From positions 1 to 27,058 of IMG/VR virus record IMGVR_UViG_3300023220_000125: DNA of 27,058 nucleotides. One strand, written 5' to 3'. The DNA is from a virus. The position numbers and the translations under genes are program-made. Positions 1 through 27,058 of the stretch are shown one piece after another (position 1 is the first letter of the stretch; each line of letters starts with the position of its first letter). The notes under the pieces were generated by a model, which did no database searches, was not told where the DNA came from, and saw only the letters and a list, made by a program, of their open reading frames with translations.

Positions 1-292
1 TTGGTGGGTTGATGTATTGGAAGTGGGTGGGACTCATTCGTATACATGCGTTAGTCCACCAGCCATCATCACGGCATTGAAACCATTTGGCAACGTACTC
101 TCCACACCCATCATCATAAGCGAGTATTTTATCCCCATTAGACGGCTCGCGATATTCAGCTATAGGCAACCAGCGAACCTCTGCGGCTGCTTGTAGGGCT
201 GCTTTGGCGATTACTCGTGACTGCGCTGTCCACAAGTCGTCTATGGCATCTACTACCGCTTCAATCTCTGCTTCAGTTATTTTAATCATCAT
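1..292 (-). CDS. DUF551-like small protein, truncated by window edge
   Basis: Reading leftward from ATG at 292 (or the adjacent ATG at 289), the frame stays open to base 1, so the C-terminus lies outside the window. The N-terminus (MMIKITEAEIEAVVDAI) is a short acidic helix. After it comes a segment with the spacing of DUF551 proteins: RWLPIAE, then NGDKILAYDDG, then SPTHFQYINPP. DUF551 proteins are small phage and prophage proteins with a W-P-I/V start and a THW-x-P-LP-x-PP end. Their function is unknown. The start overlaps the lipoprotein stop as ATGA. GGAG lies at 297-300, which fits the ATG at 289 better than 292. It is the third gene of the leftward operon from the promoter at 721-748, and resembles 1302-1580 and 1830-2159 on the other strand. 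The family call is moderate. Confidence 0.6.
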   Translation of the reverse strand, partial: MMIKITEAEIEAVVDAIDDLWTAQSRVIAKAALQAAAEVRWLPIAEYREPSNGDKILAYDDGCGEYVAKWFQCRDDGWWTNACIRMSPTHFQYINPP

Positions 293-579
293 CTTGCTCC
301 CTTAAATTCTTTGGTACAGAATAGGTCTTGCGATGTCCACGAACATTGCTTGACCAAATCTTCGCCCTCTTCATCACTCATTGGGTTTGCTGCTTTGCTG
401 CAATCAATTATGAACTTTGCGCGAGATTCTTGGTCACATACCATTTTGTATTGGTAGCCTATTACACAGTTACGCCCGCCATACCTTTCACACTTATAGC
501 CCGCAGCCGTTGGGCTAGTTGGCTCATTGTCGCAGCCCGTCACCGCTAACAGCGTGACTAATAATACTAATTTACTCAT
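289..579 (-). CDS. Cys-rich predicted lipoprotein
   Basis: A 96-residue protein starting at ATG 579, chosen because GGAGG sits seven bases upstream and the resulting N-terminus is a clean lipoprotein signal: MSKLV, a hydrophobic run, and lipobox VTGC with Cys16. The mature part is about 80 residues and holds six more cysteines (in YKC, RNC, MVC, IDC, KQC and LFC), enough for three disulfides in the periplasm. It has Asp after the lipidated Cys, which in enterobacteria favours inner-membrane retention; this rule may not hold in the unknown host. The gene overlaps the 41-aa gene upstream by eight bases and the DUF551-like gene downstream by four. No family was recognised. Being expressed from a strong promoter away from the lysis genes, it could alter the host envelope, for example in superinfection exclusion, but that is inference. 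The ORF is sure; the function is unknown. Confidence 0.75.
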   Translation of the reverse strand: MSKLVLLVTLLAVTGCDNEPTSPTAAGYKCERYGGRNCVIGYQYKMVCDQESRAKFIIDCSKAANPMSDEEGEDLVKQCSWTSQDLFCTKEFKGAR

Positions 580-697
580 AACATTTCCTCCAATATTTAT
601 CTTCGTCTTTATCTTCTTGGCTATCCAAGTATTGCTCATACTCTGCGCCATAAGCTGCAAAGAATAGGTCTGGTGTTATTTTAAATTCTATTGTCAT
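572..697 (-). CDS. Small acidic protein, 41 aa
   Basis: ATG at 697 preceded by GAGGAG at a good distance, ending with TAA at 572-574 inside the start region of the lipoprotein gene. The product is MTIEFKITPDLFFAAYGAEY followed by an acidic tail (several D/E with K) ending RKCYE. It is the first gene after the promoter at 721-748, with a predicted 5' leader of only about 16 bases. Eight-base overlap with the lipoprotein gene suggests coupled translation. No family was recognised. The short length is offset by a good ribosome site, the promoter position and the overlap typical of this genome. Confidence 0.65.
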   Translation of the reverse strand: MTIEFKITPDLFFAAYGAEYEQYLDSQEDKDEDKYWRKCYE

Positions 698-720
698 AAT
701 TTACTCCTCTTGTTAGAACC

Positions 721-748
721 ATCATAGCACACCGTTTACACCTGTCAA
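721..748 (-). promoter_or_regulatory. Sigma70-like promoter for left minus operon
   Basis: On the minus strand TTGACA (743-748), a 16-base spacer and TATGAT (721-726) form a near-consensus promoter reading leftward into 572-697. The start of the spacer is GGTGTAAAC (734-742), also present in the same position in the promoter at 27033-27058. The ribosome-site cassette just downstream (703-713, ACAAGAGGAGT on the minus strand) is likewise identical in the two. Seen directly; promoter activity is inferred. Confidence 0.8.
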
Positions 749-767
749 CTATTAGTTGAGATATAAT

Positions 768-801
768 ACAATAAATATGTTAGTTGCGTAAACAATAAAT
801 A
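768..801. repeat. Direct repeat ACAATAAATA in divergent promoter region
   Basis: The ten-base sequence ACAATAAATA occurs at 768-777 and 792-801, start to start 24 bases, in the AT-rich gap between the two divergent promoters. The second copy lies in the spacer of the plus-strand promoter. A separate motif pair, GTTTAC at 734-739 and GTAAAC at 788-793, is inverted across the same region. These could be regulator-binding sites, but AT-rich sequence makes short repeats likely by chance. Confidence 0.4.
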
Positions 802-812
802 GGTGTTACAAT
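784..812 (+). promoter_or_regulatory. Sigma70-like promoter for rightward array
   Basis: TTGCGT (784-789), a 17-base spacer and TACAAT (807-812) read rightward; the first gene starts at 831 with AGGGAG at 821-826, giving a short leader of about 12 bases. The spacer end and -10 box contain GGTGTTAC, close to the GGTGTAAAC element of the two leftward promoters. The match is good though less than consensus at -35. Confidence 0.65.
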
Positions 813-830
813 ACGTTGGAAGGGAGTATT

Positions 831-959
831 ATGACCGATTCCACAGAAGAAATAATCAAAGCACTAAGGGAACTAAACGAAGTTCTCATAAAATTACGTG
901 ACATCCTTGATCCCCCTAAGAAAGAACCTAACATAAAGTTGGTAGTAGATAATGAGTAA
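831..959 (+). CDS. Small charged helical protein, 42 aa
   Basis: ATG at 831 with AGGGAG five bases upstream, first gene after the rightward promoter. The product, beginning MTDSTEEIIKALRELNEVL, has heptad-like leucine/isoleucine spacing, then a PPKKEP hinge and a short hydrophobic end (KLVVDNE). It looks like a single amphipathic helix or short coiled coil. The stop overlaps the next start by eight bases. No family was recognised. The promoter and ribosome site make it likely to be translated. Confidence 0.6.
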   Translation: MTDSTEEIIKALRELNEVLIKLRDILDPPKKEPNIKLVVDNE

Positions 960-1173
960 TGTAGAACAATTTCCGCTAAAAATAACAGGAAAGGAAACCC
1001 CAAGCAGAATACTAGATGCTGCAAAGAATTGGGGCGCAAGTGATGTTATAGTATGCGGTGTTGTTGATGGTGAGATGTGCGTCTCAGGAACCTGCAATAT
1101 GTCACATGAGATAATAGGGCTACTTGAACTTGCTAAACATCATATACTGATTATGGAGTGCGAAGATGAGTAA
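952..1173 (+). CDS. Conserved-looking small protein, 73 aa
   Basis: Begins MSNVEQFPLKITGKETPSR and continues with an ILDAAKNWGASDVIVCGVVD segment. That segment resembles an alpha/beta unit in which a helix is followed by a hydrophobic strand. Three cysteines fall at CGV, MCV and TCN, and the C-terminus is a second helix/strand (EIIGLLELAKHHILIMECEDE). It overlaps the previous gene by eight bases and the next one by eight. Phage genomes commonly carry small proteins of this kind with two strands and two helices next to early promoters, but I cannot name a family. No membrane segment. Confidence 0.7.
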   Translation: MSNVEQFPLKITGKETPSRILDAAKNWGASDVIVCGVVDGEMCVSGTCNMSHEIIGLLELAKHHILIMECEDE

Positions 1174-1309
1174 GAAAAGGCACAACTCAAACTATAACGA
1201 GATGGTAATGCTTCTAATGAGCAATGGTTTATTTGTTGAGGATCAAGCTTTAGCCATAGCTGATGCAATAGTTGACTGGTCAAGCCTTGAGGAGTGTGGT
1301 GATGACTGA
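1166..1309 (+). CDS. Small hypothetical protein, 47 aa
   Basis: ATG at 1166 within the end of the preceding gene, stop TGA at 1307-1309 overlapping the next ATG at 1302. The product starts MSKKRHNSNYNEMVMLLMSN and ends with an acidic helix (WSSLEECGDD). The centre (GLFVEDQALAIADAIVDW) is amphipathic. No family was recognised. Support comes from its fit between two overlapping genes and from lack of a gap otherwise. Confidence 0.55.
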   Translation: MSKKRHNSNYNEMVMLLMSNGLFVEDQALAIADAIVDWSSLEECGDD

Positions 1310-1580
1310 ATGGTGTGACATAAGCACAGCTCCTAAAGATGGGACACAGGTTCTAACGTGTGACGGAGAGTATTATCATATTGGTGCTAACAGTGGAGAT
1401 ATGGGTTATGGTGACGATACTGTAGCAGGTAGTTGGTTTGAAGCCGAAGAGTGCAAGACAATTTACCCCACACACTGGATGCCCCTACCAAATCCGCCAA
1501 GTGAAGACGAAGAACTAATTAAGATAGTAAAGGAAAGAGACGGCGAAGAAACTATTAAAGTAGAACTGGAGGATTTATGA
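1302..1580 (+). CDS. DUF551-like protein, 92 aa
   Basis: The start at ATG 1302 is preferred over an upstream TTG at 1272 because GAGGAG lies seven bases before it and because the protein then begins with the family pattern: MTEWCDISTAPKDGTQVLTC. The middle is acidic (GDMGYGDDTVAGSWFEAEE) and the family's terminal pattern follows: YPTHWMPLPNPP. After that an acidic tail of about 25 residues extends beyond the usual domain end. DUF551 is a small domain of unknown function common in phages and prophages, often clustered with other short accessory genes. A paralogue lies two genes downstream and a third, diverged one at the left edge. Stop overlaps the next start as ATGA. Confidence 0.75.
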   Translation: MTEWCDISTAPKDGTQVLTCDGEYYHIGANSGDMGYGDDTVAGSWFEAEECKTIYPTHWMPLPNPPSEDEELIKIVKERDGEETIKVELEDL

Positions 1581-1837
1581 GTAGAACACAATTATTAATA
1601 GAATTAGAGGAAGTAAAAGAGAGAGGGAGTAGGTTCAATCGAGATGCTACAATGAGCATGATACTAGGTTGCTTATTCTTTATTGCTGCGCCAAATGTTC
1701 CAAATGATTTTGTTGCACGATTGTTTGTAGCCTTTGGTTATATTGCAGTAATATCCTATATGGTTTCATCTGTGCTGAGTATTATTACAACTTATTTGGT
1801 GTTTAAGTTAAATAGGAGACTAAAGGCGCATGATTAA
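1577..1837 (+). CDS. Small inner-membrane protein, two TM segments
   Basis: An 86-residue protein with GGAGG five bases upstream of ATG 1577. The N-terminus is a charged helix (TQLLIELEEVKERGSRFNRD). Two hydrophobic segments follow, at about residues 25-45 (MILGCLFFIAAP) and 50-78 (LFVAFGYIAVISYMVSSVLS), with a basic C-terminus (KLNRRLKAHD). The topology suggests both ends face the cytoplasm. Located between the two DUF551-like genes and overlapping both. It could be a membrane partner or an exclusion factor, but nothing in the sequence decides; it is far from the lysis-like cluster, so a holin role is less likely. Confidence 0.7.
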   Translation: MSRTQLLIELEEVKERGSRFNRDATMSMILGCLFFIAAPNVPNDFVARLFVAFGYIAVISYMVSSVLSIITTYLVFKLNRRLKAHD

Positions 1838-2159
1838 TGACCTAAAGAATCATAAGTGGGATACTTCAGAGTATATTGAAGACACTGGAAGGGTTGGCTT
1901 ACAGATGCGTAATCAATGGCAACCAATAGAGACAGCGCCTAAAGATGGGACTCAAATATTAGGTAATCACAATAGTGAAATCTATATAATGCTGTATGAT
2001 GCTGACAAAAATTACCATGATGAAGTAGTTGAATGGTGTAATGAAAAATACTGGACATCCTATGGTGACGATACATATAGGAGTTACTACCCCACACACT
2101 GGCAAACACTACCAGAACCACCAACCAACGAAACAAAGGAGACTAACAATGCCACATAA
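1830..2159 (+). CDS. DUF551-like protein, 109 aa
   Basis: Begins at ATG 1830, overlapping the previous gene by eight bases. A leader of about 28 residues precedes the domain, which starts NQWQPIETAPKDGTQILG, close to the DISTAPKDGTQVL of 1302-1580. It ends YYPTHWQTLPEPP, and shares the SYGDDT/GYGDDT motif with its paralogue. An internal ATG in frame (codon MRNQWQPIE, near 1904) could be an alternative start giving the more usual domain length. Function of DUF551 is unknown. The pair looks like a duplication separated by a membrane protein gene. Confidence 0.75.
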   Translation: MINDLKNHKWDTSEYIEDTGRVGLQMRNQWQPIETAPKDGTQILGNHNSEIYIMLYDADKNYHDEVVEWCNEKYWTSYGDDTYRSYYPTHWQTLPEPPTNETKETNNAT

Positions 2160-2334
2160 GAAGAAAGGCAAGACTTGGAAAAAGATAGAAGTAAACAACA
2201 GTGAGCATATGGGCAAGATACTAAACGTTCGATGTTGCTGCAAAGGCGAAAGCATTGTAGGACAAGCCACCGTTAGTATTGCTTCTGTATTGGACTACTT
2301 CGGTAATGAGCTAGCTATTAAAAGCCATGCCTAA
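2149..2334 (+). CDS. Small basic protein with CCC motif, 61 aa
   Basis: Start ATG 2149 is chosen because AAGGAG precedes it; the longer open frame upstream is only a shadow of the DUF551-like gene. The product begins MPHKKKGKTWKKIEVNN, strongly basic, then has VRCCCKGESIVG and ends in a helix (SIASVLDYFGNELAIKSHA). Three consecutive cysteines are unusual in a small phage protein. It overlaps its upstream neighbour by 11 bases and its downstream neighbour by eight. No family was recognised. A nucleic-acid or metal-binding role would fit the basic start and cysteines but is only a guess. Confidence 0.6.
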   Translation: MPHKKKGKTWKKIEVNNSEHMGKILNVRCCCKGESIVGQATVSIASVLDYFGNELAIKSHA

Positions 2335-2464
2335 AAAGAATGGAAAGGAACCTAAAGGAAGCCGTAAAGGTTTCAAGACAAAAATCACAAGTAACGGGTT
2401 TGAGCGTACTGTAACGGTTAGCCCACGTAAAAAGAAAACCACAACTAAAAGGAAGAAAAAATGA
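2327..2464 (+). CDS. Very basic small protein, 45 aa
   Basis: ATG 2327 to TGA 2462-2464. The composition is dominated by Lys and Arg: MPKKNGKEPKGSRKGFKTK at the start and RKKKTTTKRKKK at the end, with a short central strand (GFERTVTVSP). It overlaps the neighbours on both sides (eight and four bases), as real genes in this array do. It may bind DNA or RNA electrostatically. No family was recognised, and Lys-rich frames also arise by chance in A-rich sequence, so confidence is limited. Confidence 0.5.
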   Translation: MPKKNGKEPKGSRKGFKTKITSNGFERTVTVSPRKKKTTTKRKKK

Positions 2465-2820
2465 CTACATTAACAGAAGCAGCACATAAGGCATTACAAA
2501 ACGCAGGAGTGCAATCACAAATCGTAGAAGGCGTACTTGAATACAAAGTACCTGATCTAATAAACCACGGTGTAAACAACAGAGGTGAAAAGGTTGTTGT
2601 AGGAAGAAAGCCGGGTGGCTGGACTTCTTGCCATATCATTAATGCTAAGAACTTTGCAGCAAAGCTACAGAACAACCGCATTAACGTAACAGAACAAGAT
2701 ATTATCTCTAATATGGTAACACGAGTAGTAGAGCAAAAAGAAGTAATTGAAGAGGAAGTTGTAGAAGTAGTAGAGAAACCTAAGAAGAAGAAAAAGGTAG
2801 TGAAGACCGTATACAATTAG
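2461..2820 (+). CDS. Hypothetical protein with charged C-tail, 119 aa
   Basis: Begins MTTLTEAAHKALQNAGVQSQ, followed by a folded-looking section with KVPDLINHGVNNRGEKVVVG and GGWTSCHIINAKNFAAKL. From about residue 88 the sequence becomes a low-complexity acidic then basic tail (VIEEEVVEVVEKPKKKKKVV). A ribosome site (GGAAGAAAAA) precedes the start and the ATGA overlap couples it to the small basic gene. It is the last gene before the terminase small subunit. Family and role are unknown. Confidence 0.7.
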   Translation: MTTLTEAAHKALQNAGVQSQIVEGVLEYKVPDLINHGVNNRGEKVVVGRKPGGWTSCHIINAKNFAAKLQNNRINVTEQDIISNMVTRVVEQKEVIEEEVVEVVEKPKKKKKVVKTVYN

Positions 2821-2838
2821 AATATCTAAGGTATTGAT

Positions 2839-3231
2839 ATGACTAAAGAAAGCAAACCAAATGGCAGACCTCTAAAGTGGGCAACACCTGAAGAACTAAA
2901 GAAAGAGATTGACGAGTTTTTCGACCACTGTAAAATAGAGAAGAAGCATCCTATTGTAGAGAGGCTGTGTGTTTACCTAGGTTGTGACAAGCAAACTATC
3001 CTTAATTATGAAGAGAAAGATGGGTTCGCTAAAGTTATAGAAAATGCCAAGCTTCGTATTGCCTCTCATGTTATGGGTCGTGCCTTAGATGGTGATATCA
3101 ATCCAACAATGGCTATATGGATTAGTAAGAACCATTATGGTTACTCTGATACCAAGGTTAACAAGACTGATCTAAATGTAAATGGTCACGAGGCATACCT
3201 TGCTAGCTTATTAGGGAAGGTTGAGGATTAG
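2839..3231 (+). CDS. Terminase small subunit
   Basis: This 130-residue protein lies immediately before the large terminase and fits the gp3-like DNA-packaging family: the start GRPLKWATPEELKKEIDEFF, a helix-turn-helix at about residues 38-60 (VERLCVYLGCDKQTILNYEE), then a helix with RIASHVMGRALDGDINPTMA, and the common ending section IWISKNHYGYSDT. Small terminases recognise the packaging start site on phage DNA and assemble as a ring that regulates the large subunit. The stop is seven bases before the large-subunit start. The order small-large terminase then portal supports the call strongly. Confidence 0.88.
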   Translation: MTKESKPNGRPLKWATPEELKKEIDEFFDHCKIEKKHPIVERLCVYLGCDKQTILNYEEKDGFAKVIENAKLRIASHVMGRALDGDINPTMAIWISKNHYGYSDTKVNKTDLNVNGHEAYLASLLGKVED

Positions 3232-3238
3232 TTAGTTA

Positions 3239-4768
3239 ATGGAAGAACAGCAGTTACATAAAATTAGGGATAGGTTATACAAAGACCTCCCCTTCTATGC
3301 TGAGAACCTGTTAAAGATACGACCTAAGAAAGGTGGGCTTATTCCTTTTGTGCTTAACCGACCACAACGTTATGTACATGAGCAACTAGAGAAGCAGTTA
3401 AAAGAGACAGGTAAGGTTAGGGCATTAATTCCTAAAGCTCGCCAAGAAGGCATAAGCACTTATGTTGGTGCAAGGTTCTATCATAAGACAACACACTCCT
3501 TTGGTATTAAGGCTTACATCCTATCTCATCAGAAGGATACTACTGAAGAACTGTTTAATATGGTTGATACGTACCATAGCTCTATTCCTCCTATGTTCCA
3601 AGCAAAGGCAAGTACAGATAATACTAAGGAGCTTGTATTCGCAGACTTAGAGAAGAGCGGCTATCGTGTTGGTACTGCTGGTGGTGAGGGAACAATGGGT
3701 CGTGGCATGACTATTCAGCTATTACATGGATCAGAGGTTGCTAAGTGGAAGAACGAAGCAGAGATTATGTCTGGTATTATGGAGGCTGTGCCTGATTGTG
3801 ACGGTTCAGAGATCATCTTAGAGTCAACAGGTGATGGTATAGATAATATGTTTCATCGTATGTGTATGGATGCAGTAGAAGGAAAGAACGAATATCAAGT
3901 TATCTTTATCCCTTGGTTTTGGATGGAAGAATATTACATGGATACTCGTGAAGACTTTTCTCTTTCCACTGATGAACAGAAGTATATGAAGCTGTATGAG
4001 TTGAACGAAGGGCAAATGGCTTGGAGAAGAAACAAGATCGCCAAACTAGGGGAGTCTAAGTTTAGTCAAGAATATCCTGCGATCATTAGCGAGTGCTTCC
4101 AGATAGCTAGCACCGAATCACTGATAGGTAGTGATGATGTAATGGCTGCAAGACGTACGAATATACAAGAGAAAGACCGTCATTCTGCTAAGGTATTAGG
4201 AGTTGACCCTGCTCGTCATGGTGGCGATAGAACTGCTATGATATGGAGAGTTGGTAGAACATTGGTTAAGAAGGAGGTGTTTACTAATGATGACCTTATG
4301 GGTGTTGTTGGTAAGGTAGTTATGGCTATACGTGAAGATGATTTGGATAAGGTGTTCCTTGATGTTGGTGGTTTAGGCTGGGGTATATACGATAGGTTAA
4401 GAGAGATACTTGGCAAGGATAGCGGTATTATTATTGGTGTTAATGCTGGAGAGAAAGCTTTGGACAAAGAGAAATACTTTAACAAGCGTGCTGAGATGTG
4501 GGGAGAGATGAACGACTGGATTAAATCTGCTCCTTGTGACCTGTTGGATGATGACGAATTAATGATGGATCTGACCTGTCCCGGATATACGTGGGATAGC
4601 AACGGTAGATTGAAGTTAGAGAGCAAAGATGACATAAGAAAGAAGGGTAGAAAGTCTCCTGATCTTGGTGATGCATTAGCTCTAACATTCTCATTCCCCG
4701 TAAATAAGGTGACAAGAAGCCAATTTTATGGTACTACAGATAGTAATAAAGGAAATATGTATGTTTGA
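3239..4768 (+). CDS. Terminase large subunit (packaging ATPase/nuclease)
   Basis: A 509-residue DNA-packaging motor. The ATPase half has a variant Walker A at about residues 66-74 (KARQEGIST), an acidic Walker B-like LLHGSEVAKW at 161-170 and a coupling motif ILESTGDG at 193-200. The RNase H-like nuclease half has the metal-binding acidic residues in GVDPARHGGD (Asp323), VFLDVGG (Asp375) and PDLGDAL (Asp478). It pumps DNA into the procapsid through the portal and cuts the concatemer. The motif set resembles P22-like and related headful enzymes, but packaging type cannot be settled from this alone. It starts seven bases after the small subunit and overlaps the next gene by eight bases. Confidence 0.93.
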   Translation: MEEQQLHKIRDRLYKDLPFYAENLLKIRPKKGGLIPFVLNRPQRYVHEQLEKQLKETGKVRALIPKARQEGISTYVGARFYHKTTHSFGIKAYILSHQKDTTEELFNMVDTYHSSIPPMFQAKASTDNTKELVFADLEKSGYRVGTAGGEGTMGRGMTIQLLHGSEVAKWKNEAEIMSGIMEAVPDCDGSEIILESTGDGIDNMFHRMCMDAVEGKNEYQVIFIPWFWMEEYYMDTREDFSLSTDEQKYMKLYELNEGQMAWRRNKIAKLGESKFSQEYPAIISECFQIASTESLIGSDDVMAARRTNIQEKDRHSAKVLGVDPARHGGDRTAMIWRVGRTLVKKEVFTNDDLMGVVGKVVMAIREDDLDKVFLDVGGLGWGIYDRLREILGKDSGIIIGVNAGEKALDKEKYFNKRAEMWGEMNDWIKSAPCDLLDDDELMMDLTCPGYTWDSNGRLKLESKDDIRKKGRKSPDLGDALALTFSFPVNKVTRSQFYGTTDSNKGNMYV

Positions 4769-5111
4769 TGAAATGCCAGTAAGTCGTATGTTTATTGCCC
4801 TTGTTCCACTAGATAGAACACCGGGCGAAGCTAAGAAAGCAGCACGCAAGAAGATTATGGAGATTGTAACTCTCGGCAATCGGGATAAGAAACACTCATA
4901 CAAGATAACTAAGGAATGGTTTGAGAGATGTGACCTTAAAGGCAAGGATTGTATGCGTATTGATGCCTTTGTAGAGTGTGATGCTTTCGTACCTAGTAAA
5001 TATATGGAGTGGCTTCTTGATAGAGGCGGCAAACAAGAAAACTTTGATAGCTTTATACAGGCTTACACACAGGAGCATCCCGAATGGCAATCTTTGACGA
5101 CGATACAATAA
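4761..5111 (+). CDS. Unknown protein between terminase and portal, 117 aa
   Basis: Start ATG 4761 (MFDEMPVSRMFIALVPLDR) has AAAGGA upstream and overlaps the terminase stop by eight bases; the stop overlaps the portal start by 28 bases, a longer overlap than elsewhere in the window. Contents include an Ala/Lys helix (GEAKKAARKKIMEIV), a Cys-containing middle (ERCDLKGKDCMRIDAFVECD) and a Trp/Glu-rich end (QEHPEWQSL). No membrane segment or signal. Position suggests a packaging or head-assembly role, yet no family was recognised. Confidence 0.75.
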   Translation: MFDEMPVSRMFIALVPLDRTPGEAKKAARKKIMEIVTLGNRDKKHSYKITKEWFERCDLKGKDCMRIDAFVECDAFVPSKYMEWLLDRGGKQENFDSFIQAYTQEHPEWQSLTTIQ

Positions 5112-7186
5112 TTAAGAACTATCAGAAACTCATAACATCTGCACAGGAATTTGGCTGGTCTTGGTGGAAACGTAATGAATACATTGAGGGTCGTAGGTTC
5201 TTCGATGGTATAGAACAGTATGACTCAGATGTGCTTAAGTCATTAGGGAAAAGAGGTTTGCGACCAGTTGTGATGAACAGAACAGATCCCTTTATACGAG
5301 GTGTTGCTAATAATATTGGTAAGGCAACAGGAGTATGGAGATACTACCCACTGGATGATGTAGAGAACCAGCCAGATCAAGAGCAGAACACAGAGAAGGA
5401 CGACTACTCTACTTCGATGAATGAGTTGGGAAAGTGGGGAAGAGATCAAGGTAACTTTGAAAGAGAGGCTGGTCAAGTTCGACTAGATGCATCTATCTGT
5501 GGTGTTGGTATAATGGAACAACGTTTAGATATGGAGGGTGATAATGTATTCGGAGAGCCTTGCTATACTCGTATTCCCCCGATTGAAGTAGTTATAGATC
5601 AAGATGCTCAAGGTGTTAACTTCCATGACGCTAGAGATATGTTCCGCGCTCGTATTATGGACAAGGAAACATTTACTGAGCAGTTTGAAGATAGTCCGGG
5701 GGCTAAAGATGTGGGCGATGGTATTGACCAGATGTTCACAATGCTTCAAGTAAATAACACAGATAGTATAACAATTAATCCTCTATTTGAATCTACAGCA
5801 TTTGACAGCCGACTAGGACAGAACAATGTAACTGTGTATGATTATCAATGGTTCCAGAAAGAGGCGGTTCATGTAGTTAAGAATCCTTTGTTAGATGATA
5901 TTAATCTTAATATCTTAGGGCAAGATGAGGAGTTATTAATAGAGCTTCGTAAGCTTATGGATGATAACAAATTGGCTGATGATGATCCTTCGTGGTTACT
6001 GTTTGATAAAGAGTTCAGGCAGCTTGAGGGAATCATAGACAATAAGGTTGATATTGAATCGGCTAAGAAGAAGAAGAAACGTTATTACCGTGCGTTTATT
6101 GCTGGTGATATTATTCTTGATAAGATGGAATCTCCTTTCCCAGATGGGTTTACTTACTCGTTCTATACTCAGTATTATGATGAAGATAAACGTGTGCCTT
6201 ATGGGTTTATGCGTAAGATCAAAGACTCACAAAGAACATCTAATGCATCTTTCTTGCATATGTTCCACAGTATTCTTTCAGCCCCTAAGCCTTCTATGTT
6301 CGCTGAACACGGCGTAACAGATGAGCCGGATAAGTTTGAATTACAAGCGGCACAACGTGATTCAGTGTTGTGGGTTAATGACGGTAAGTTAGAAAGAATA
6401 AGAGAGAACATTCCCCCTACTGTACCGACAGGGTTTGAAAACCCATTACAGATATCAATTGAGTCTATGTTCCAAGTAACTGGTTTAAACTTTGAGATGC
6501 TAGGACAACAAACTAACGAGATCTCAGGTATACTAGATAAGCAGCGTACTGAACGTGGTTATGATATGCTTAAAGATGTGATCGATAACTATCGTATGTT
6601 CCTCAAGGAAATAGGGAAGAAGGATCTTCAACTATATAGAGAGATAGCATCACAAGCACCGGGAGAGATCATTCGTGTGATTGGTACTAATGGTATTGAG
6701 GCTATTCCTTTGCTCAAGGATCAAACTAATCAGAACTTTGCTGTAACTATTGATGATGCGCCTTCTTCTATTAATCAGAAGTCAGATAATATTAAGGTTC
6801 TGTTTGATATTATGCAGTTACCTAACATACCTCCGCAGATGCAGCCTATGTTACTAGATGCAGTGCTAGAGAACTCTGATATGCCTAGTGATCTACGTAG
6901 GGGTCTGCAACGAGGATTGACTGATGCTACTACTCCTTCTGAAGAGGAAAGAGCACAACAAGCACAACAACAGCAGCAAATCTTACAACAACAATTGGCT
7001 TCACAACAGGCGCAAGATGAGCTTGTCCGTGCTAATACAATAGAGAAAGAAGGCGAGGCAATTAAAGATGCAGCCGATGCTAAATTGAAAGAAGCACAAG
7101 AAGTTAAAGTTTTAGCCGATACGGAGAAAGTAATAGCTGAGACACAAGAAATTCAAGCCGAAATGGCAGGAATAATACCAAAGTAA
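5084..7186 (+). CDS. Portal protein, P22-like
   Basis: A 700-residue protein in the portal position, directly after the terminase. Features typical of P22-type portals are visible: an N-terminal helical wing (FGWSWWKRNEYIEGRRFFDG), RPVVMNRTDPFIRGVANNI, the long alpha/beta body, and a C-terminal helical region from about 600 onward. That region becomes Gln/Ala rich (EEERAQQAQQQQQILQQQL) and then a charged coiled coil. The length is close to P22 gp1 (725 residues). It forms the 12-subunit ring through which DNA enters and leaves. The C-terminal coiled region resembles the barrel of P22 portal. Its start lies inside the end of the 117-aa gene. Confidence 0.88.
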   Translation: MAIFDDDTIIKNYQKLITSAQEFGWSWWKRNEYIEGRRFFDGIEQYDSDVLKSLGKRGLRPVVMNRTDPFIRGVANNIGKATGVWRYYPLDDVENQPDQEQNTEKDDYSTSMNELGKWGRDQGNFEREAGQVRLDASICGVGIMEQRLDMEGDNVFGEPCYTRIPPIEVVIDQDAQGVNFHDARDMFRARIMDKETFTEQFEDSPGAKDVGDGIDQMFTMLQVNNTDSITINPLFESTAFDSRLGQNNVTVYDYQWFQKEAVHVVKNPLLDDINLNILGQDEELLIELRKLMDDNKLADDDPSWLLFDKEFRQLEGIIDNKVDIESAKKKKKRYYRAFIAGDIILDKMESPFPDGFTYSFYTQYYDEDKRVPYGFMRKIKDSQRTSNASFLHMFHSILSAPKPSMFAEHGVTDEPDKFELQAAQRDSVLWVNDGKLERIRENIPPTVPTGFENPLQISIESMFQVTGLNFEMLGQQTNEISGILDKQRTERGYDMLKDVIDNYRMFLKEIGKKDLQLYREIASQAPGEIIRVIGTNGIEAIPLLKDQTNQNFAVTIDDAPSSINQKSDNIKVLFDIMQLPNIPPQMQPMLLDAVLENSDMPSDLRRGLQRGLTDATTPSEEERAQQAQQQQQILQQQLASQQAQDELVRANTIEKEGEAIKDAADAKLKEAQEVKVLADTEKVIAETQEIQAEMAGIIPK

Positions 7187-7220
7187 CACACAACCAACCA
7201 CAACCTAGCAAGGATTAACC

Positions 7221-8324
7221 ATGACCGATCAATTACAACAAGCAGTAGAAATAGAAAACATTAACGATGCCGTTGACTTCTTAGCAACTGAACAACCAGC
7301 AGCAGAAGAGGAAGCCGCCCCGATTGTAGAAGAGCAGGGTGAAACTACTGTCGAGGGAGTTGAGGCCGCTTTGCTTGCAGAAGATGAGCCAATAGAAGAG
7401 GCAAAAGAGTTATCTTTAGAAGAGCAAGTTAGTAGTATGTCAGATGATGACCTGAACTCATTAGCAGATAAGCTAGTAGAACAAGGTGGGGAAGTGCCAT
7501 CGTTCGTTGTTAAGAAGCTGCGTAAACAGAAGACAGAAGCTAAAGAAGAGTTGAGCGAGAAGGGCGGCAAGCTTGATGATACTCTTAATAATATGACGAC
7601 TATCTTAGAGAAGATGTCTCAGAACCAGCAACCTGCGACTGAAGCACCAGTAGAATCTAACGGACTTAACTCTGAAGAGTTTGCAGAGGCTATGTCTTAT
7701 GAGCCTGAGAAGGCAGCTAAGATGATGCAAGACCAGATGAAGACAATGCAAGATAAGATGAAGGCGATGGAAGAACAGTCGGCTATATCACAATTGCAAG
7801 TGGCTCATGGTAATATTGAGCAGCAAGCACGTAAGCGCGATGTTGATTATGATGCCAAGAAGATTAAGTTCATTGAGTTAGAGGCACAGAATCTTAAGGT
7901 AAGCAACCCTATGGCTACAGAAAGCCAGCTAAAAGCACACGCTGAGAATACTTTTAACACAAGATCTATGGAATATCTATTACAGGGGCAAGATCCTACT
8001 ATTGTTCTAGATGGCTACTTCAAAAGCACAGGTATTGAATTTAGACAGTCTAAAGCAAACAAGAAAGATGTTGATATCGATGCTATTGCTTCTAGTATTA
8101 ATAAGCATCAAACTCTGGGTGGCAAGAGTGCCAAGCCTAGCCAAGGTATTGAAGAGATGACACTTTCTAAGCTTGCAGATATGCATCCTAACAAGGTACA
8201 GGCATTCGGTAAGAAGTATGCTAATCACATAAATGGCAAGAAAGATGGTAAGAAGGTAACCGCTACTGAAGCTCTAGATATATTTATGCGTGAACAAGCA
8301 AAGAAAGAATCATCCACGCTCTAG
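7221..8324 (+). CDS. Scaffolding protein
   Basis: A 367-residue protein between portal and major capsid genes, the standard scaffold position. It is very acidic over the first 130 residues (many Glu/Ala, e.g. EQPAAEEEAAPIVEEQGE), then has a methionine/lysine-rich coiled coil near 165-190 (MMQDQMKTMQDKMKAMEEQ) and a basic helical C-terminal part (VTATEALDIFMREQAKK). Scaffolds of P22-like phages are acidic, helical and end in a basic capsid-binding helix-turn-helix. No protease motif was seen, so removal may occur by exit rather than cleavage. AAGGA before ATG 7221 is the ribosome site. Confidence 0.8.
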   Translation: MTDQLQQAVEIENINDAVDFLATEQPAAEEEAAPIVEEQGETTVEGVEAALLAEDEPIEEAKELSLEEQVSSMSDDDLNSLADKLVEQGGEVPSFVVKKLRKQKTEAKEELSEKGGKLDDTLNNMTTILEKMSQNQQPATEAPVESNGLNSEEFAEAMSYEPEKAAKMMQDQMKTMQDKMKAMEEQSAISQLQVAHGNIEQQARKRDVDYDAKKIKFIELEAQNLKVSNPMATESQLKAHAENTFNTRSMEYLLQGQDPTIVLDGYFKSTGIEFRQSKANKKDVDIDAIASSINKHQTLGGKSAKPSQGIEEMTLSKLADMHPNKVQAFGKKYANHINGKKDGKKVTATEALDIFMREQAKKESSTL

Positions 8325-8336
8325 TAAATAGGTGGC

Positions 8337-8365
8337 TTGACACATAAACCTTTGTATGCTAGACT
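8337..8365 (+). promoter_or_regulatory. Strong extended -10 promoter for capsid cassette
   Basis: TTGACA (8337-8342), a 17-base spacer, and TAGACT (8360-8365), preceded by TGC at 8357-8359, which supplies an extended -10 TGn motif. It lies just after the scaffold stop and about 130 bases before the major capsid gene, so it would give extra transcription of the most abundant virion proteins. Seen directly; strength is inferred from consensus match. Confidence 0.8.
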
Positions 8366-8497
8366 AAGCTAACTGCAATTGCTGTACAAGGCAGCGCGTA
8401 GACTCACGATACGAGAAGCAGGCATAGTTATAGCCGTAATATAGCCCTTGAATAAGCAGTTAATATTTATTTATTAACTTAACTCAAGAGGTCTATT
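8366..8497 (+). other. Structured leader before major capsid gene
   Basis: The longest non-coding stretch in the rightward array. It holds an inverted pair TAACTGC (8370-8376) and GCAGTTA (8456-8462) that could close a large domain, a tandem TATAGCC (8429-8435 and 8440-8446), and an AT-only hairpin GTTAATA/TATTAAC (8459-8465 and 8472-8478). The last overlaps the second arm of the large pair, so they would compete. The ribosome site AGAGG follows before ATG 8498. A long structured leader may stabilise the capsid mRNA. No riboswitch class was recognised. Confidence 0.45.
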
Positions 8498-9613
8498 ATG
8501 GCTGTTACAAGTCCAGCAACTGGATCGATCATTAGCTTATTTGGGAAACGTTTAATCCCAGAAGCACTAAAAGAAACTATCTTTGGTCAAATGGTCGGTT
8601 CTACAATTAAACAAGAAACTGAACTATCAAATATGCGCGGTGTTGATTTCACTACCACGCTTGGTATTAACTTAACCGGTACTGGCTTCGGTCTAGCTAC
8701 TCCTGTAGATGGTAATGAAGAGTCTATTGATTCATTCACTGATACAGTGGTTGTAGATCAGCTTACACAAGCTGTGAAAGTACCTACAACTATGAATGTC
8801 GACCAACAAACTATCGGTTGGGATTGGACTAAAGAAGGTTTTGAGCGTCTACGTAAGTGGATGACTGCTACTTTCGAGATTTGGGCTGCTAACCAGATTG
8901 CTGGTAATACTGCAACTCAAATTGGTTCAGGTACTGACACGCTACCTTATGATGGTCGTGTATATACTGCCGGTAAAACTACATTCGCAACTGGTAACAA
9001 TACTGCTACTGCACCTACTGCTAACCGCGTTATTCGCGCTGGTGGTGCTGCTACTGATCAAGCACTTACATCTACTGATACTATGACGTTATCATTGGTT
9101 GAAGCTGCTGTTGAGAAGGCACGTAATGCTACACCGGTTATCGAACCTGTTAACTTTGAAGGTCGTGATGTATTCATTATGATCATTTCAAACGAGCAAT
9201 GGACTGATCTATTGCGTGACACTACTTCACCTGTACAAGTAGTTGACATTAGCTTGTCTCTATTAAATGGTGGTAACAACCCGTTTGCCAATGACCTTAT
9301 TAAGGTTCAAGGCTTCCAATACCAAGATACGCTTATTATTCGTAATAGCCGTATTCCTTATGGTGTTAACTCTTCTAGTTCAGCTCAGATTTCTACGGTA
9401 CGCCGTGCTATCTTTATGGGTAACCAAGCTGCATCATTCGGTTTCAAAGGAGCCGGTGCTGGTGAGGCTATGTTCCATGAAGAAATGAAAGATGGTGGTC
9501 GTTTCCGTCAGGTTACAGCTAACGTTGTGGGTGGTCTTAAGAAGATCGTTTATAACAGTGAAGACTATGGTGTTATTACTGTTTCAACCTTTGCCGATGC
9601 GCATACAAGTTAA
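8498..9613 (+). CDS. Major capsid protein, N4-gp56/DUF4043 type
   Basis: A 371-residue protein whose start is typical of the DUF4043 (N4 gp56) capsid family: LFGKRLIPEALKETIFGQMV, then KQETELSNMRGVDFTTTL, then GNEESIDSF and VVVDQLTQAVKVPTTMNVD. The C-terminal half has the expected GRDVFIMIISNEQWTDLL and FKGAGAGEAMFHEEMKDGG sections. It forms the icosahedral shell with the HK97-like fold. The gene has its own promoter and terminator with only one partner gene, consistent with very high expression. The family is usually seen in N4-like and other podoviruses; here it sits with a P22-like portal. Confidence 0.88.
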   Translation: MAVTSPATGSIISLFGKRLIPEALKETIFGQMVGSTIKQETELSNMRGVDFTTTLGINLTGTGFGLATPVDGNEESIDSFTDTVVVDQLTQAVKVPTTMNVDQQTIGWDWTKEGFERLRKWMTATFEIWAANQIAGNTATQIGSGTDTLPYDGRVYTAGKTTFATGNNTATAPTANRVIRAGGAATDQALTSTDTMTLSLVEAAVEKARNATPVIEPVNFEGRDVFIMIISNEQWTDLLRDTTSPVQVVDISLSLLNGGNNPFANDLIKVQGFQYQDTLIIRNSRIPYGVNSSSSAQISTVRRAIFMGNQAASFGFKGAGAGEAMFHEEMKDGGRFRQVTANVVGGLKKIVYNSEDYGVITVSTFADAHTS

Positions 9614-9624
9614 GGAGAAATGAC

Positions 9625-10122
9625 ATGACAGCTTTTACTTTTACAAGAGTTAAACAAGAAAACGTATTAAACCGTGGTGCTAGCACTACTGTTGTAGCTA
9701 CATTTGATGTTGACGTTGAAACGTCTTCAGCAGGTCTTGCTAGTGGTGATACTATTTCTGGTATTAACGTTCCTCAATTCGCTACTGTTACAGGTTACTA
9801 CTTGATCTTCCCTGAATTGGATTCCAATGGAACTCCTACAGGTACTTTTGATCTTGGTGATGCTGCTGACGCAGATCGTTATCTCAATGGTGTTGTTATG
9901 GGTGGTTCGCTTACTCATTATGCATACAACGAGAAAGATGCTGATCTACCGGGGGCTTTAGTCTCTACAGTTGGCGATACAACAAATACTCCTTCTAATG
10001 GTGTTGGTTTTACCTACACTGCTGATGGCGTTATTAGTTTAACCGTTGCAACTGCGGTTGCTACTGCGGTTACTTCAGGAACACTTGTTTTGGCAGTAAC
10101 ATATACTGACAATGCAGTGTAG
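9625..10122 (+). CDS. Candidate capsid decoration/stabilising protein
   Basis: A 165-residue beta-rich protein directly after the major capsid gene, inside the same promoter-terminator cassette, with AAGGAG seven bases before ATG 9625. It is rich in Thr, Val, Gly and Asp, without long helices. Recognisable pieces are TFDVDVETSSAGLASGDTIS, a DLGDAADADRYLNGVVMGG stretch and a repetitive VATAVATAVTSGTLVLAVTY end. Proteins with this composition and a GD-x-x-DADRY motif often follow phage capsid genes and act as outer decoration or head proteins. The exact role is inferred from position and fold type. Confidence 0.65.
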   Translation: MTAFTFTRVKQENVLNRGASTTVVATFDVDVETSSAGLASGDTISGINVPQFATVTGYYLIFPELDSNGTPTGTFDLGDAADADRYLNGVVMGGSLTHYAYNEKDADLPGALVSTVGDTTNTPSNGVGFTYTADGVISLTVATAVATAVTSGTLVLAVTYTDNAV

Positions 10123-10135
10123 CTAGGTTGTGGCT

Positions 10136-10161
10136 GGAGGGGGCGAAAGCCTCCTCCTTTT
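10136..10161 (+). terminator. Intrinsic terminator after capsid cassette
   Basis: GGAGGGGGC (10136-10144), GAAA tetraloop (10145-10148), GCCTCCTCC (10149-10157), then TTTT. Nine pairs with one G-U and a GNRA loop give a very stable hairpin. The U-run is short, so read-through into the following structural genes is expected, which fits the need for less of those products than of capsid protein. Confidence 0.85.
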
Positions 10162-10171
10162 AATTAAGGAG
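10154..10171 (+). promoter_or_regulatory. Ribosome-site-masking hairpin overlapping the terminator
   Basis: CTCCTT (10154-10159) is perfectly complementary to AAGGAG (10166-10171), the ribosome site of the gene at 10179, with loop TTAATT. The first arm is shared with the 3' arm of the terminator hairpin, so the two structures are mutually exclusive. Seen directly; regulation is inferred. Confidence 0.5.
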
Positions 10172-10178
10172 ATTTAAT

Positions 10179-10556
10179 ATGGCTATTTCAAGAGTTAATC
10201 CTCAACGCACATCTGGTGTTGGTGATATTATTGTTCAAACTACTATTGCCAATATTTCAAGCGCTTCTTCTTCTTGGGTTGTTTCACCTTTTGGTGGTGA
10301 CATTACTAAGATTGAGACTGTTATTGATACTGCTATTACCACTGGTGATGCAACTATCACAGCAGAGCTTGGAGGCACGTTAGTTACAGGTTCATCTATC
10401 ACTATTGCTAATTCTGGTAGTGCTCCGGGTGACGTAGATAGTTCAAGTCCAACAGGTGCTAATACTGTAACTGCTGGTCAAGCTATCGAGATTATTACAG
10501 ACGGTGGTTCAACTGTTGCTTCTAAAGCAGTGGTTACTATTACAATACAATTATAG
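10179..10556 (+). CDS. Small beta-rich virion protein, 125 aa
   Basis: First gene after the terminator, with AAGGAG seven bases before ATG 10179. It begins MAISRVNPQRTSGVGDIIV and is composed almost wholly of predicted beta strands rich in Thr, Ser, Ile and Val (e.g. TAITTGDATITAELGG, SKAVVTITIQL), with few charged residues. No signal or membrane segment. This matches small head or tail decoration proteins, which are common at this position, but there is no specific motif. The gene ends 16 bases before the predicted GTG start of the adaptor-like gene. Confidence 0.6.
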   Translation: MAISRVNPQRTSGVGDIIVQTTIANISSASSSWVVSPFGGDITKIETVIDTAITTGDATITAELGGTLVTGSSITIANSGSAPGDVDSSSPTGANTVTAGQAIEIITDGGSTVASKAVVTITIQL

Positions 10557-10572
10557 TTTATGGTGGTCAGTT

Positions 10573-11226
10573 GTGGCGGATTTTGGCGAATTAAAAGCGT
10601 TAGTTTTACGTGACTTAGAACGTGACGATCTGTCTACTGACAGTAATGCAAATATAGATGACACAACTATTGAGTATTACATCAAGAGATCAATTGACCA
10701 CTTTAAAACAAAGCAATTCTGGTTTAATCAGAGGACAGCAACAACAGTAACTATTGCTGCTAATTCTGACACAGCGTCACTACCTAATGATTTCATAAGT
10801 GCTGTTATTTTTAGAGTGACGACAAACGGATCTCAAAGAATCTTAACAGAAACGCATTACGAAGAGCTTGAGACTGCTAGAGCTATATCACAAGTTATTA
10901 ATAGCTCAGCCCCTACTTTGTTCTCTATATTTGGGGAGCAATTTGAGTTCTATCCTACCCCCACGCAATCCATTTCCACTAAGCTTAGTTATATCTTTGA
11001 GTTAACTGAGTTGTCTGCTGATTCTGACTCTAATACGTGGACGAATGACGCTCGTATGATGATCTCTGCGAAGACTAAAGAGTATATCTATAGAGATAGA
11101 CTGCGCAATAGTGAGGCGGCTACTAGAGCAGCGTTAGAAGTGGAGCAGGAATTACAAAAGCTCACTACTCGTACGAATAAGAATGTAGCCATAGGTATGG
11201 TAAGAATAGAATCATGGTTGGGGTAG
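10573..11226 (+). CDS. Head-tail adaptor/head completion protein
   Basis: I place the start at GTG 10573 (VADFGELKALVLRDLERDD) because the frame before it overlaps the previous gene and gives an implausible hydrophobic N-terminus; the ribosome site there (GGTGG) is weak. The 217-residue product shows the layout of podovirus adaptor proteins: N-terminal helix, YYIKRSIDHFKTKQFWFNQ, a strand TVTIAANSDTASLPNDFI, a central beta part FSIFGEQFEFYPTP, and helices with AKTKEYIYRDRLRNSEAATR. These rings sit beneath the portal and receive the tail hub (P22 gp4-like role). Family assignment is by pattern and position. Confidence 0.65.
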   Translation: MADFGELKALVLRDLERDDLSTDSNANIDDTTIEYYIKRSIDHFKTKQFWFNQRTATTVTIAANSDTASLPNDFISAVIFRVTTNGSQRILTETHYEELETARAISQVINSSAPTLFSIFGEQFEFYPTPTQSISTKLSYIFELTELSADSDSNTWTNDARMMISAKTKEYIYRDRLRNSEAATRAALEVEQELQKLTTRTNKNVAIGMVRIESWLG

Positions 11227-12729
11227 ATGGAAAGATTAGTATCAGAGATAGGAAGATTAAACAGGGCGTCTACACTTGACCTCTCTACAGACAAGATTGC
11301 CGTACATCAACCAGATAATACTATAAGTTCCGCACTTTTAAGCGACATAACCGCATATGGAAGCAACGCAGAAATTATCTGTACCTCTGATGATTGGGAA
11401 AGCAAGGCAGCTTCTGTAACTTCAACTGAAATAACTCTAAAAGATAACACAACATACTTCTTGTGTGAGCCAACTACTCTAACTAAGACGATTGTTTGGG
11501 GTGCAGGCACAGGTATTGTTGACACTACTATTAGTAATAATGTTATAACCAGCACAGCAGACCCTGTATATAAGGCAACTAACCTAACACGTTGTAGATT
11601 GCAGAATGTTCAAACAAATGGCAACTTCACCAACGCAATGTTTGATATGACCTCAACGCTAGCTCCTGCTGGTGGTTTCTTTTCTATTGAGCTATGTGTA
11701 TTCGCCTTAGCGGCTAGTTTTGGAACATTGGATGGTATCCAGCCTGTATTTAACGGCGTTGCCGCAGTGTTGGTTGGTGGTAATTTGCGTCTCACAGGAA
11801 ATGGTGGGTTATGCTCTATAGTTTCAGTGAACTGGTTTAATTCGACAAACTTCACACAATTCACTTTGGATGGAACGTGGACAGGCGCGGTTCTGCTTGC
11901 TAGGATGAATCTTTCAACTGGATCGTCTGGAATTGCAATAGATGTAGATTCTGCAATATCAGCCCCTGATATATTCCTTGAAACAATAGCTTATACTGGT
12001 GGTACATTCTTTGATCCTACTGGATTAGATGATACAGATATTCCTTTAGATGTGGCAAATGTGCAGGGTGTTGCTGATAGTGCGGCTATAGGTGTTATGT
12101 GCTTCATTAACAATACAACTGCAACAACATATACAGCACAAGCAGCAGATGGAGTAATCACAACAGTAGCTGATGCAGGCGGCGGCAACATAACAATTAC
12201 AAGCACAGCACATGGATTATCTGGAAGTGATGAAGTCGTTATCTTAGGAACAACGAGTTATAATGGTACGTATACGATTGTCAGCACCACAACAAACACT
12301 TTTGACGTGACTGCAACTTTTGTGGCCACAGAAACAGGTACGTGGGAGTTTGGTTGGACTGATATTGCAGGTACGGCTGTAGCGGGAGAGACGTTAGAAA
12401 GATTTACTCTTGCAACAAGTCCCAATCGATTAACTTACAATGATTCGCCTCCAATTAAAGCGACATTAGTAACGAGTGTCGCTGCTACAAATGGTTCATC
12501 TGGGATTGTACATGAATTTGGACTCTTTGGAGAAAGAGCAGGGGCAACGGCTGGTTTTGTTAGAGTAGCTGATGGATTGTGGCAAGGAGAATTTGATAAC
12601 CGAGTTAAAAGTATAGCTTTTGCTCCATCTCATAAAGTTTTACAAAATGATGTTCTAAAGGTGATGGTGAGAAATACAGAAGGTACAGATAGTATAACAA
12701 TAACATTTTTTGAATTCAATATTAGATAG
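11227..12729 (+). CDS. Tail fibre-like virion protein with FCCH-like module
   Basis: A 500-residue protein beginning one base after the previous stop, with a poor ribosome site (GGGG), so translation is probably coupled. The N-terminal half is beta-rich with repeated short strands and loops, similar to a beta-helix (LTRCRLQNVQTNGNFTNAMF; RLTGNGGLCSIVSVNWFN). Residues about 307-375 are a small module with GGGNITITSTAHGLSGSDEV, SYNGTYTIVS, TTNTFDVTATF and ETGTWE. Such modules are often annotated as ubiquitin-activating E1 FCCH-like in phage tail proteins. The C-terminal 120 residues form a jelly-roll-like part. Likely a fibre or receptor-binding component; a head fibre is the alternative. Confidence 0.6.
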   Translation: MERLVSEIGRLNRASTLDLSTDKIAVHQPDNTISSALLSDITAYGSNAEIICTSDDWESKAASVTSTEITLKDNTTYFLCEPTTLTKTIVWGAGTGIVDTTISNNVITSTADPVYKATNLTRCRLQNVQTNGNFTNAMFDMTSTLAPAGGFFSIELCVFALAASFGTLDGIQPVFNGVAAVLVGGNLRLTGNGGLCSIVSVNWFNSTNFTQFTLDGTWTGAVLLARMNLSTGSSGIAIDVDSAISAPDIFLETIAYTGGTFFDPTGLDDTDIPLDVANVQGVADSAAIGVMCFINNTTATTYTAQAADGVITTVADAGGGNITITSTAHGLSGSDEVVILGTTSYNGTYTIVSTTTNTFDVTATFVATETGTWEFGWTDIAGTAVAGETLERFTLATSPNRLTYNDSPPIKATLVTSVAATNGSSGIVHEFGLFGERAGATAGFVRVADGLWQGEFDNRVKSIAFAPSHKVLQNDVLKVMVRNTEGTDSITITFFEFNIR

Positions 12730-12738
12730 GAGCTAAAT

Positions 12739-13002
12739 ATGCAAACAGTAGTTCAATGGAAAGAAGTTTATCGAGACGAAGAAGGCGAAGAGCATGTTCG
12801 TAATCGAAAATACGATTGGGATGCAGAAGCTAGGGAGTTTATTGATTATGAAGATCATAAACCTACTTTGCGTTTACCAGTTAAGTTATTGGCGGATAAG
12901 GATTTAAGCGCAGTTAAATCTTTTGAGGCTAGAAAGATAGTTAAATTTGCACAGAAGGAGGTTAATAATGGCGACTACGACAACAAATTTAAGCCTTATT
13001 AA
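12739..13002 (+). CDS. Small charged protein between fibre genes, 87 aa
   Basis: ATG 12739 with AGGAG at a good distance. The product begins MQTVVQWKEVYRDEEGEEHV and includes YDWDAEAREFIDYEDHKPTL and a helix (SAVKSFEARKIVKFAQKE). It is acidic at the start and more basic at the end, with no membrane segment. Its last 35 bases overlap the next gene, whose GGAGG ribosome site lies within it. No family was recognised. Position suggests a tail chaperone or minor virion part, but that is a guess. Confidence 0.65.
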   Translation: MQTVVQWKEVYRDEEGEEHVRNRKYDWDAEAREFIDYEDHKPTLRLPVKLLADKDLSAVKSFEARKIVKFAQKEVNNGDYDNKFKPY

Positions 13003-26109: not shown

Positions 26110-26242
26110 TTCTATCTACCTCCAACTTATTGGCAGCTTTCCGCCACTTATCTGATTGCCTCTTGTCCCGTATAGACTGCTCCATAAGTACATCAGCCAA
26201 ATGATGATAGTGCTTGATTAACTCTTCAATTCTACTATCCAT
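26093..26242 (-). CDS. Small helical protein, 49 aa
   Basis: ATG 26242 lies inside the ERF stop region (eight-base overlap) with AGGTAA before it; stop TAA at 26093-26095 overlaps the next gene by 17 bases. The product begins MDSRIEELIKHYHHLADVLM and is almost entirely charged helix (QSIRDKRQSDKWRKAANKLE). It is likely a short coiled-coil protein. No family recognised. Support: the good fit of overlaps in this operon. Confidence 0.6.
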   Translation of the reverse strand: MDSRIEELIKHYHHLADVLMEQSIRDKRQSDKWRKAANKLEVDRNERKH

Positions 26243-26876
26243 TGATTACCTCTTTTCTCAGCTTCAAACATTCAACAACTGCATCGTGTGTCGCTAAGTC
26301 TTCTACTTTCAAGAAGCCCATACGACTACTGTTCTGCTTCCATAGATCGGTTAGCGCCTTCTCAGTCTTACACTTGCTAATCTTGGTTTCAATATCACCT
26401 GCCCACACGTGCCAGTCTTGAGGTTCTGAGTTTTCCTTAGCTTCCTTGATTACCTTTTTCTTTGGAGCTGCTTGAAATTCATCCGTATCAGCATCCTTAG
26501 TGTCATCTATTGCAAACAAACCATTCAGGGCATACTTACGGGCATAGCTAGACGCTGTTCCTGTGATTTGTGAGGCATCCATACCCTTACGGTCTAAAGG
26601 CTCTCTAGCGAAGGCTGTGGTGGTTATTGATTTACTACCATCAAACAGTGTTGCTGTTGCCTTAACATATACCCTGTCTGCGACAAGCACTATATCATCC
26701 TCAAGAGTTAGCGAGCATCCAACCATATGCTTTCCGATAACCGCTTTAACAGCTTCTGTAATATCCTCACAAGAGCGGTAGTTATAGTTGCCGAACTTAT
26801 TTCGCTGCCCCTTTGGTGCTGATAGGTTTAGTTGTATAAAGTTTAGCTTCTCAAAAATATCTTTAAATTCAATCAT
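26235..26876 (-). CDS. ERF-family single-strand DNA annealing protein
   Basis: A 213-residue protein from ATG 26876 with GAGGGA upstream. ERF-type features: an N-terminal helix, the NKFGNYNYRSCEDIT segment at about residues 26-40, strands with VYVKATATLFDGSKSITTTA, and the diagnostic DASQITGTASSYARKYALNG then LFAIDDTKDADTDE at 100-134, close to the G-S-A-x-S-Y-A-R-R-Y-x-L family signature. ERF proteins of P22-like phages anneal single-stranded DNA in recombination, as in genome circularisation or recombination repair. The C-terminal 75 residues (DWHVWAGDIETKISKCKTE) form a separate small helical domain. It is the second gene after the right-edge promoter. Confidence 0.85.
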   Translation of the reverse strand: MIEFKDIFEKLNFIQLNLSAPKGQRNKFGNYNYRSCEDITEAVKAVIGKHMVGCSLTLEDDIVLVADRVYVKATATLFDGSKSITTTAFAREPLDRKGMDASQITGTASSYARKYALNGLFAIDDTKDADTDEFQAAPKKKVIKEAKENSEPQDWHVWAGDIETKISKCKTEKALTDLWKQNSSRMGFLKVEDLATHDAVVECLKLRKEVING

Positions 26877-27007
26877 TAATTTGTTCCCTCTCTATCTTGC
26901 AATTCTCTTTCTATTAGCACTTGCAGAAGCAATAAATGCTCCTCGCCAAGATGGCTCACCATAATAGCAAACTTATCATAAACGCTTTTATCATCGAGTT
27001 TATTCAT
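26876..27007 (-). CDS. Small helical protein, 43 aa
   Basis: ATG 27007 with GAGGAG seven bases before, first gene after the right-edge promoter. The product begins MNKLDDKSVYDKFAIMVSHL and ends in an acidic/basic helix (LIERELQDREGTN). Its stop overlaps the ERF start by one base (TAATG), so it may couple translation of ERF. The ribosome-site cassette (27014-27024 on the minus strand, ACAAGAGGAGT) is identical to that before 697. No family recognised. Confidence 0.65.
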   Translation of the reverse strand: MNKLDDKSVYDKFAIMVSHLGEEHLLLLQVLIERELQDREGTN

Positions 27008-27032
27008 CTTATAACTCCTCTTGTTGTTATGC

Positions 27033-27058
27033 AGTATAACAGACTGTTTACACCTGTC
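27033..27058 (-). promoter_or_regulatory. Sigma70-like promoter for ERF operon, cut by window edge
   Basis: On the minus strand GACA (27055-27058, the end of a probable TTGACA whose first two bases lie outside) is followed by a 16-base spacer and TATACT (27033-27038). Spacer length, the GGTGTAAAC element (27046-27054) and the downstream ribosome-site cassette match the promoter at 721-748. Seen directly apart from the missing two bases. Confidence 0.7.

Follow-up and report, generated by a model that had tools for sequence, protein, structure and literature searches.

Two leftward operons lie at opposite ends of a virus record, and the initial annotation placed much the same promoter and ribosome-site cassette ahead of each. 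Does this likeness reflect control of both operons by one regulator? The window, meaning the whole stretch of DNA analyzed, is a single linear virus fragment of 27,058 bases that is probably incomplete. Rightward genes occupy positions 831-24943, leftward operon A runs from 748 to beyond base 1, and leftward operon B runs from beyond 27058 to 24945. The source is an uncultivated marine P22-like podovirus, otherwise undescribed: Pfam-type profile matches to P22_portal (7e-77) and GP3_package (6e-17) were obtained, and the encoded proteins include a P22-type portal, a gp3-type small terminase, a large terminase, a Phage_capsid_3 coat protein, an SU10-type adaptor, and an ERF annealing protein. 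The nearest characterized relatives, all of them distant, are Pseudoalteromonas phage vB_PspP-H6/1, an uncultured podovirus, and Vibrio phage 1.182.O; their large terminases match that of the window at 39-43% identity. Since the records of these relatives span 37-38 kb, about 10 kb of the genome probably lies outside the record. The promoters and leaders concerned are as follows.

721..748, minus strand: site A, predicted sigma-70-type promoter of leftward operon A (TTGACA-16-TATGAT, TG ahead of the −10 box)
703..714, minus strand: leader block of site A, AACAAGAGGAGT, with ribosome site, identical to that of site B
27033..27058, minus strand: site B, predicted promoter of the leftward ERF operon ([TT]GACA-16-TATACT, TG ahead of the −10 box)
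27046..27058, minus strand: GACAGGTGTAAAC, as much of the common element as the record shows at site B (final 13 bases of the record)
27014..27025, minus strand: leader block of site B, AACAAGAGGAGT, identical to that of site A

Read from 748 to 721 on the minus strand, site A is TTGACA-GGTGTAAACGGTGTGC-TATGAT; it carries 11 of the 12 sigma-70 consensus bases and is the top promoter-like site within positions 1-14000. Site B, read from 27058 to 27033, is [..]GACA-GGTGTAAACAGTCTGT-TATACT. Both thus have near-consensus hexamers within the 16-18 bp spacing range, with two −35 bases of site B falling beyond the record. Both promoters, the 13-base identity, the 16-base spacing, the −10 boxes beginning with TAT, and the ribosome-site block were all present where the initial annotation had put them, with two amendments: the identical cassette is 12 bases long, one more than reported, and the site B promoter, found as described, is cut by the record end at 27058, which falls within its −35 box and leaves the TT and everything upstream outside the record. 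The spacings from −10 box to start codon were also said to nearly match, and they measure 23 nt (A) and 25 nt (B). The genes that follow are indeed unrelated, as the first proteins of the two operons, of 41 and 43 amino acids, have no similarity.

572..697, minus strand: first gene of operon A, 41 amino acids, no family match
289..579, minus strand: second gene of operon A, small lipoprotein-like protein with signal MSKLVLLVTLLAVTGC
2..292, minus strand: third gene of operon A, leaving the record at its left end
26876..27007, minus strand: first gene of operon B, 43 amino acids, no family match
26235..26876, minus strand: ERF-family single-strand annealing protein of operon B (Pfam ERF, 6e-34; phrog_155, 5e-42)

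Relatives of the lipoprotein-like gene at 289-579 occur at 47-67% identity in seven other virus contigs, and the site A promoter is absent ahead of those relatives. This minus-strand gene is a candidate moron or superinfection-exclusion protein.

Sites A and B have in common GACAGGTGTAAAC and a TG-extended TAT..T −10 box, and their spacers are identical at 13 of 16 bases (81%; binomial probability, ~6e-6). The record contains exactly two copies of the 13-mer GACAGGTGTAAAC and none of its reversed control, and when the record was searched at 0 or 1 mismatch, the 12-base block AACAAGAGGAGT was found only at 703-714 and 27014-27025. Among all pairs drawn from 48 gene starts, A and B are the most similar, with a local score of 24 versus 17 for the runner-up; 150 randomized sets that retained the real ribosome sites peaked at 19. 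The comparison rests on two copies, site B being cut by the record end, and no third copy of the motif was found in the window, where the next-best match reached 18/26. In a scan of 170 phage sequences, which covered the window (without the cut site B) together with ERF-, portal-, or terminase-related loci, spacer identity of at least 75% was seen in 1 of 364 same-sequence promoter pairs. That pair, at 173-201 and 2814-2842 (plus strand) of locus L022, shares 14 of 17 spacer bases and is an independent case of repeated promoter-like sites.

That two strong sigma-70 promoters are alike by chance, or that the contig end holds an assembly artifact, might be suspected, given that the 13-mer makes up the final 13 bases of the record. 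However, the likeness runs on into the record through the spacer, the −10 box, and the 12-base leader block at a matching distance, and the A/B score exceeds that of every randomized set; we consider such an origin highly improbable. Sites A and B are a real, nonrandom pair of matched, predicted early promoters.

Judged by the spacing from the −10 boxes, transcripts would start at about 714 (A) and about 27025-27026 (B), that is, at or one base ahead of AACAAGAGGAGT. Both messages therefore probably have the second common block at their 5′ end. The predicted leaders are 17 nt (A) and 18 nt (B) long and have little or no structure. An RNA element in the leader was considered and rejected, since the leader is nearly unstructured and has no Rfam match.

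The two sites might simply be a strong constitutive early promoter and leader that were copied between operons and have stayed similar as a very strong promoter and translation start, with no regulator involved. The near-consensus −35 box, the TG-extended −10 box, the short and little-structured leader, and the good ribosome site all agree with this. Against it, the nine spacer bases beside the −35 box, GGTGTAAAC, which sigma-70 does not read, are identical at 9/9 positions between A and B, while other unconstrained bases are near chance. Between the identical blocks, the alignment leaves 11 positions of site A that belong to neither the TG nor the −10 hexamer; with one gap, 4 of the 11 match, close to the 26% identity expected from base composition. 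Apart from GGTGTAAAC and the first leader bases, A/B identity is near chance wherever neither sigma-70 nor the ribosome dictates the base. In this single aligned pair, unconstrained positions thus look close to saturated; therefore, the identity of GGTGTAAAC needs a cause, and the element looks constrained rather than a remnant of a copy event. An element that adjoins the −35 box and is conserved beyond what sigma-70 requires is accordingly supported, and its role as an operator is plausible. We regard a copied promoter without a regulator as possible but rather doubtful. The sole other exact GGTGTAAAC in the window is at 2569-2577 (plus strand), within an open reading frame.

An operator would supply such a constraint, and a candidate is present at site A.

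734..749, minus strand: candidate operator at site A, GTTGACAGGTGTAAAC, an imperfect dyad GTTnACA-nn-TGTnAAC (6/8 pairs) over the −35 box

This dyad reads GTTgACAggTGTaAAC. At least 6 of 8 symmetric pairs occur in 0.4% of all 16-mers of the window, which amounts to about 6% for some 15 possible centers; the dyad is therefore suggestive as an operator sign but weak alone. The contiguous A/B identity ends exactly at the 3′ end of the dyad, which is a second hint of an operator. Site B shows part of the dyad only, being cut by the record end. A perfect dyad in the site B spacer, AACAGTCTGTT, was rejected because it is absent at site A.

Under the operator reading, A and B would both be early promoters that host sigma-70 uses in a single P22-like podovirus, each driving a leftward operon via a leader of 17-18 nt that starts at or beside AACAAGAGGAGT. 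The cis element common to both, GACAGGTGTAAAC (GTTGACAGGTGTAAAC in its full form at site A), covers the −35 box together with the upstream half of the spacer and would act as the operator for one repressor, whose gene would belong to the host or to the part of the phage genome outside the record. Bound repressor would exclude RNA polymerase and turn both leftward operons off together. Opposing this reading are the presence of only two copies, one of them cut, the imperfect dyad, the lack of a recognized repressor, and the lack of a close relative with the element. On balance, we consider this the best reading and put the chances that a common operator and a single repressor silence both leftward operons at about even. 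More specifically, recognition of GTTnACAnnTGTnAAC over the −35 box by a hitherto undescribed repressor, proper to P22-like marine podoviruses, might control the two separate leftward operons, so that exclusion genes (the lipoprotein, if it acts in superinfection exclusion) and recombination genes form one regulon; we think this unlikely.

The element might instead bind an activator or a host regulator, such as a LacI/GalR-type protein, rather than a phage repressor. At site A, GTGTAAACG / GTGTAAACGGTGTGC resembles a GalR-type half-site, a likeness that serves as a lead only. At site B, the central CG of this class is replaced by CA and a second half-site is lacking, and the usual effect of an element overlying the −35 box is to block sigma-70 polymerase, not to activate it. 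A GalR/LacI-type operator, with a central CG between two half-sites, was rejected, as site B reads GTGTAAACA. Binding of an activator or host regulator seems quite improbable to us.

The initial annotation further held that a variant of the element overlaps the −10 box of a divergent promoter, so that one regulator could switch leftward and rightward transcription together.

785..813, plus strand: divergent rightward promoter-like site (TTGCGT-17-TACAAT, TG ahead of the −10 box), by sequence outside the A/B class

The proposed variant, GGTGTTAC at 803-810, overlaps this site and lies at edit distance 2 from GGTGTAAAC. Of 300 random 80-bp stretches taken from the window, 98 held an equal or better match to GGTGTAAAC, and the TG is accounted for by the extended −10 box. 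With the variant at chance level and no third motif copy, nothing here shows joint leftward and rightward switching, and on present evidence the predicted rightward promoter stands outside the A/B circuit.

It had also been suggested that the element and its −10 box be sought in relatives. A search of the viral collection returned three matches, all in coding-like context and without the leader block, in line with chance expectation. No close relatives were found in viral and genome contigs via the portal, the capsid, the operon B protein, or the operon A protein; alignment of the terminase to such contigs gave at most ~50% identity, with the promoter not in common. BLASTN of both promoter regions against phages gave, among the matches listed, E values of 0.4 to 5 only.

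Among phages with ERF homologues, some have divergent early promoters that share an operator-like sequence in which dyads fall between the −35 and −10 boxes. The divergent early promoters of locus L056 share AAACTAGAAT, inside AACTAGAATAATCTAG, and those of L038 share TTATAACAC, inside TTATAACACAAAAGTGTTATAA. In both Vibrio phage 1.182.O and Pseudoalteromonas phage H6/1, a divergent control region marks the start of the recombination operon. The ERF operon of 1.182.O opens with a gene for an Arc-type protein, and on the other side of a 150-bp gap lies a divergent early operon; in H6/1, a double-strand-break repair gene lies opposite a predicted transcription factor. By analogy, the place to expect a regulator and a divergent early promoter is just beyond 27058.

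Early operators of the lambda/P22 type (PL and PR) resemble the present arrangement in having two early promoters with a common site within the promoter and an Erf-type annealing gene in one early operon. They differ in that here the promoters point the same way from opposite record ends, each with one visible site, the dyad is imperfect, and no cI/c2/Cro-like repressor gene was found in the window, which is a fragment. Likewise, no repressor or integrase was recognized among the proteins of this fragment, and the phage may be strictly lytic. In the cluster A mycobacteriophage L5, a 13-bp operator/stoperator element is oriented with transcription, and one copy lies at the early promoter Pleft (PMC9283540, PMC6550527). 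The element described here is likewise a 13-bp, transcription-oriented element at an early promoter; unlike the L5 stoperators, which number more than 20 and lie in gene gaps, it has two copies. In the lytic phages TLS/T1 and Xp10, too, transcription units are preceded by direct repeats that include promoter-like sequence, although the sequences are different in both, the repeats are more numerous in TLS, and those of Xp10 are longer and identical.

If the operator reading is true, the element would offer a sequence handle on early control in uncultivated P22-like podoviruses that have no close sequenced relative, and it predicts that the two operons are switched together. The general picture of phage regulation would be unchanged; the switching of two such promoters by one protein is ordinary phage biology.

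At the end of the rightward genes, the overlapping plus-strand genes 24472-24729 and 24656-24943 resemble a spanin pair of the Rz/Rz1 type, the first with a membrane anchor. Two DUF551 genes lie near each other at 1296-1580 and 1830-2159 (plus strand), and their DNA stretches are related.
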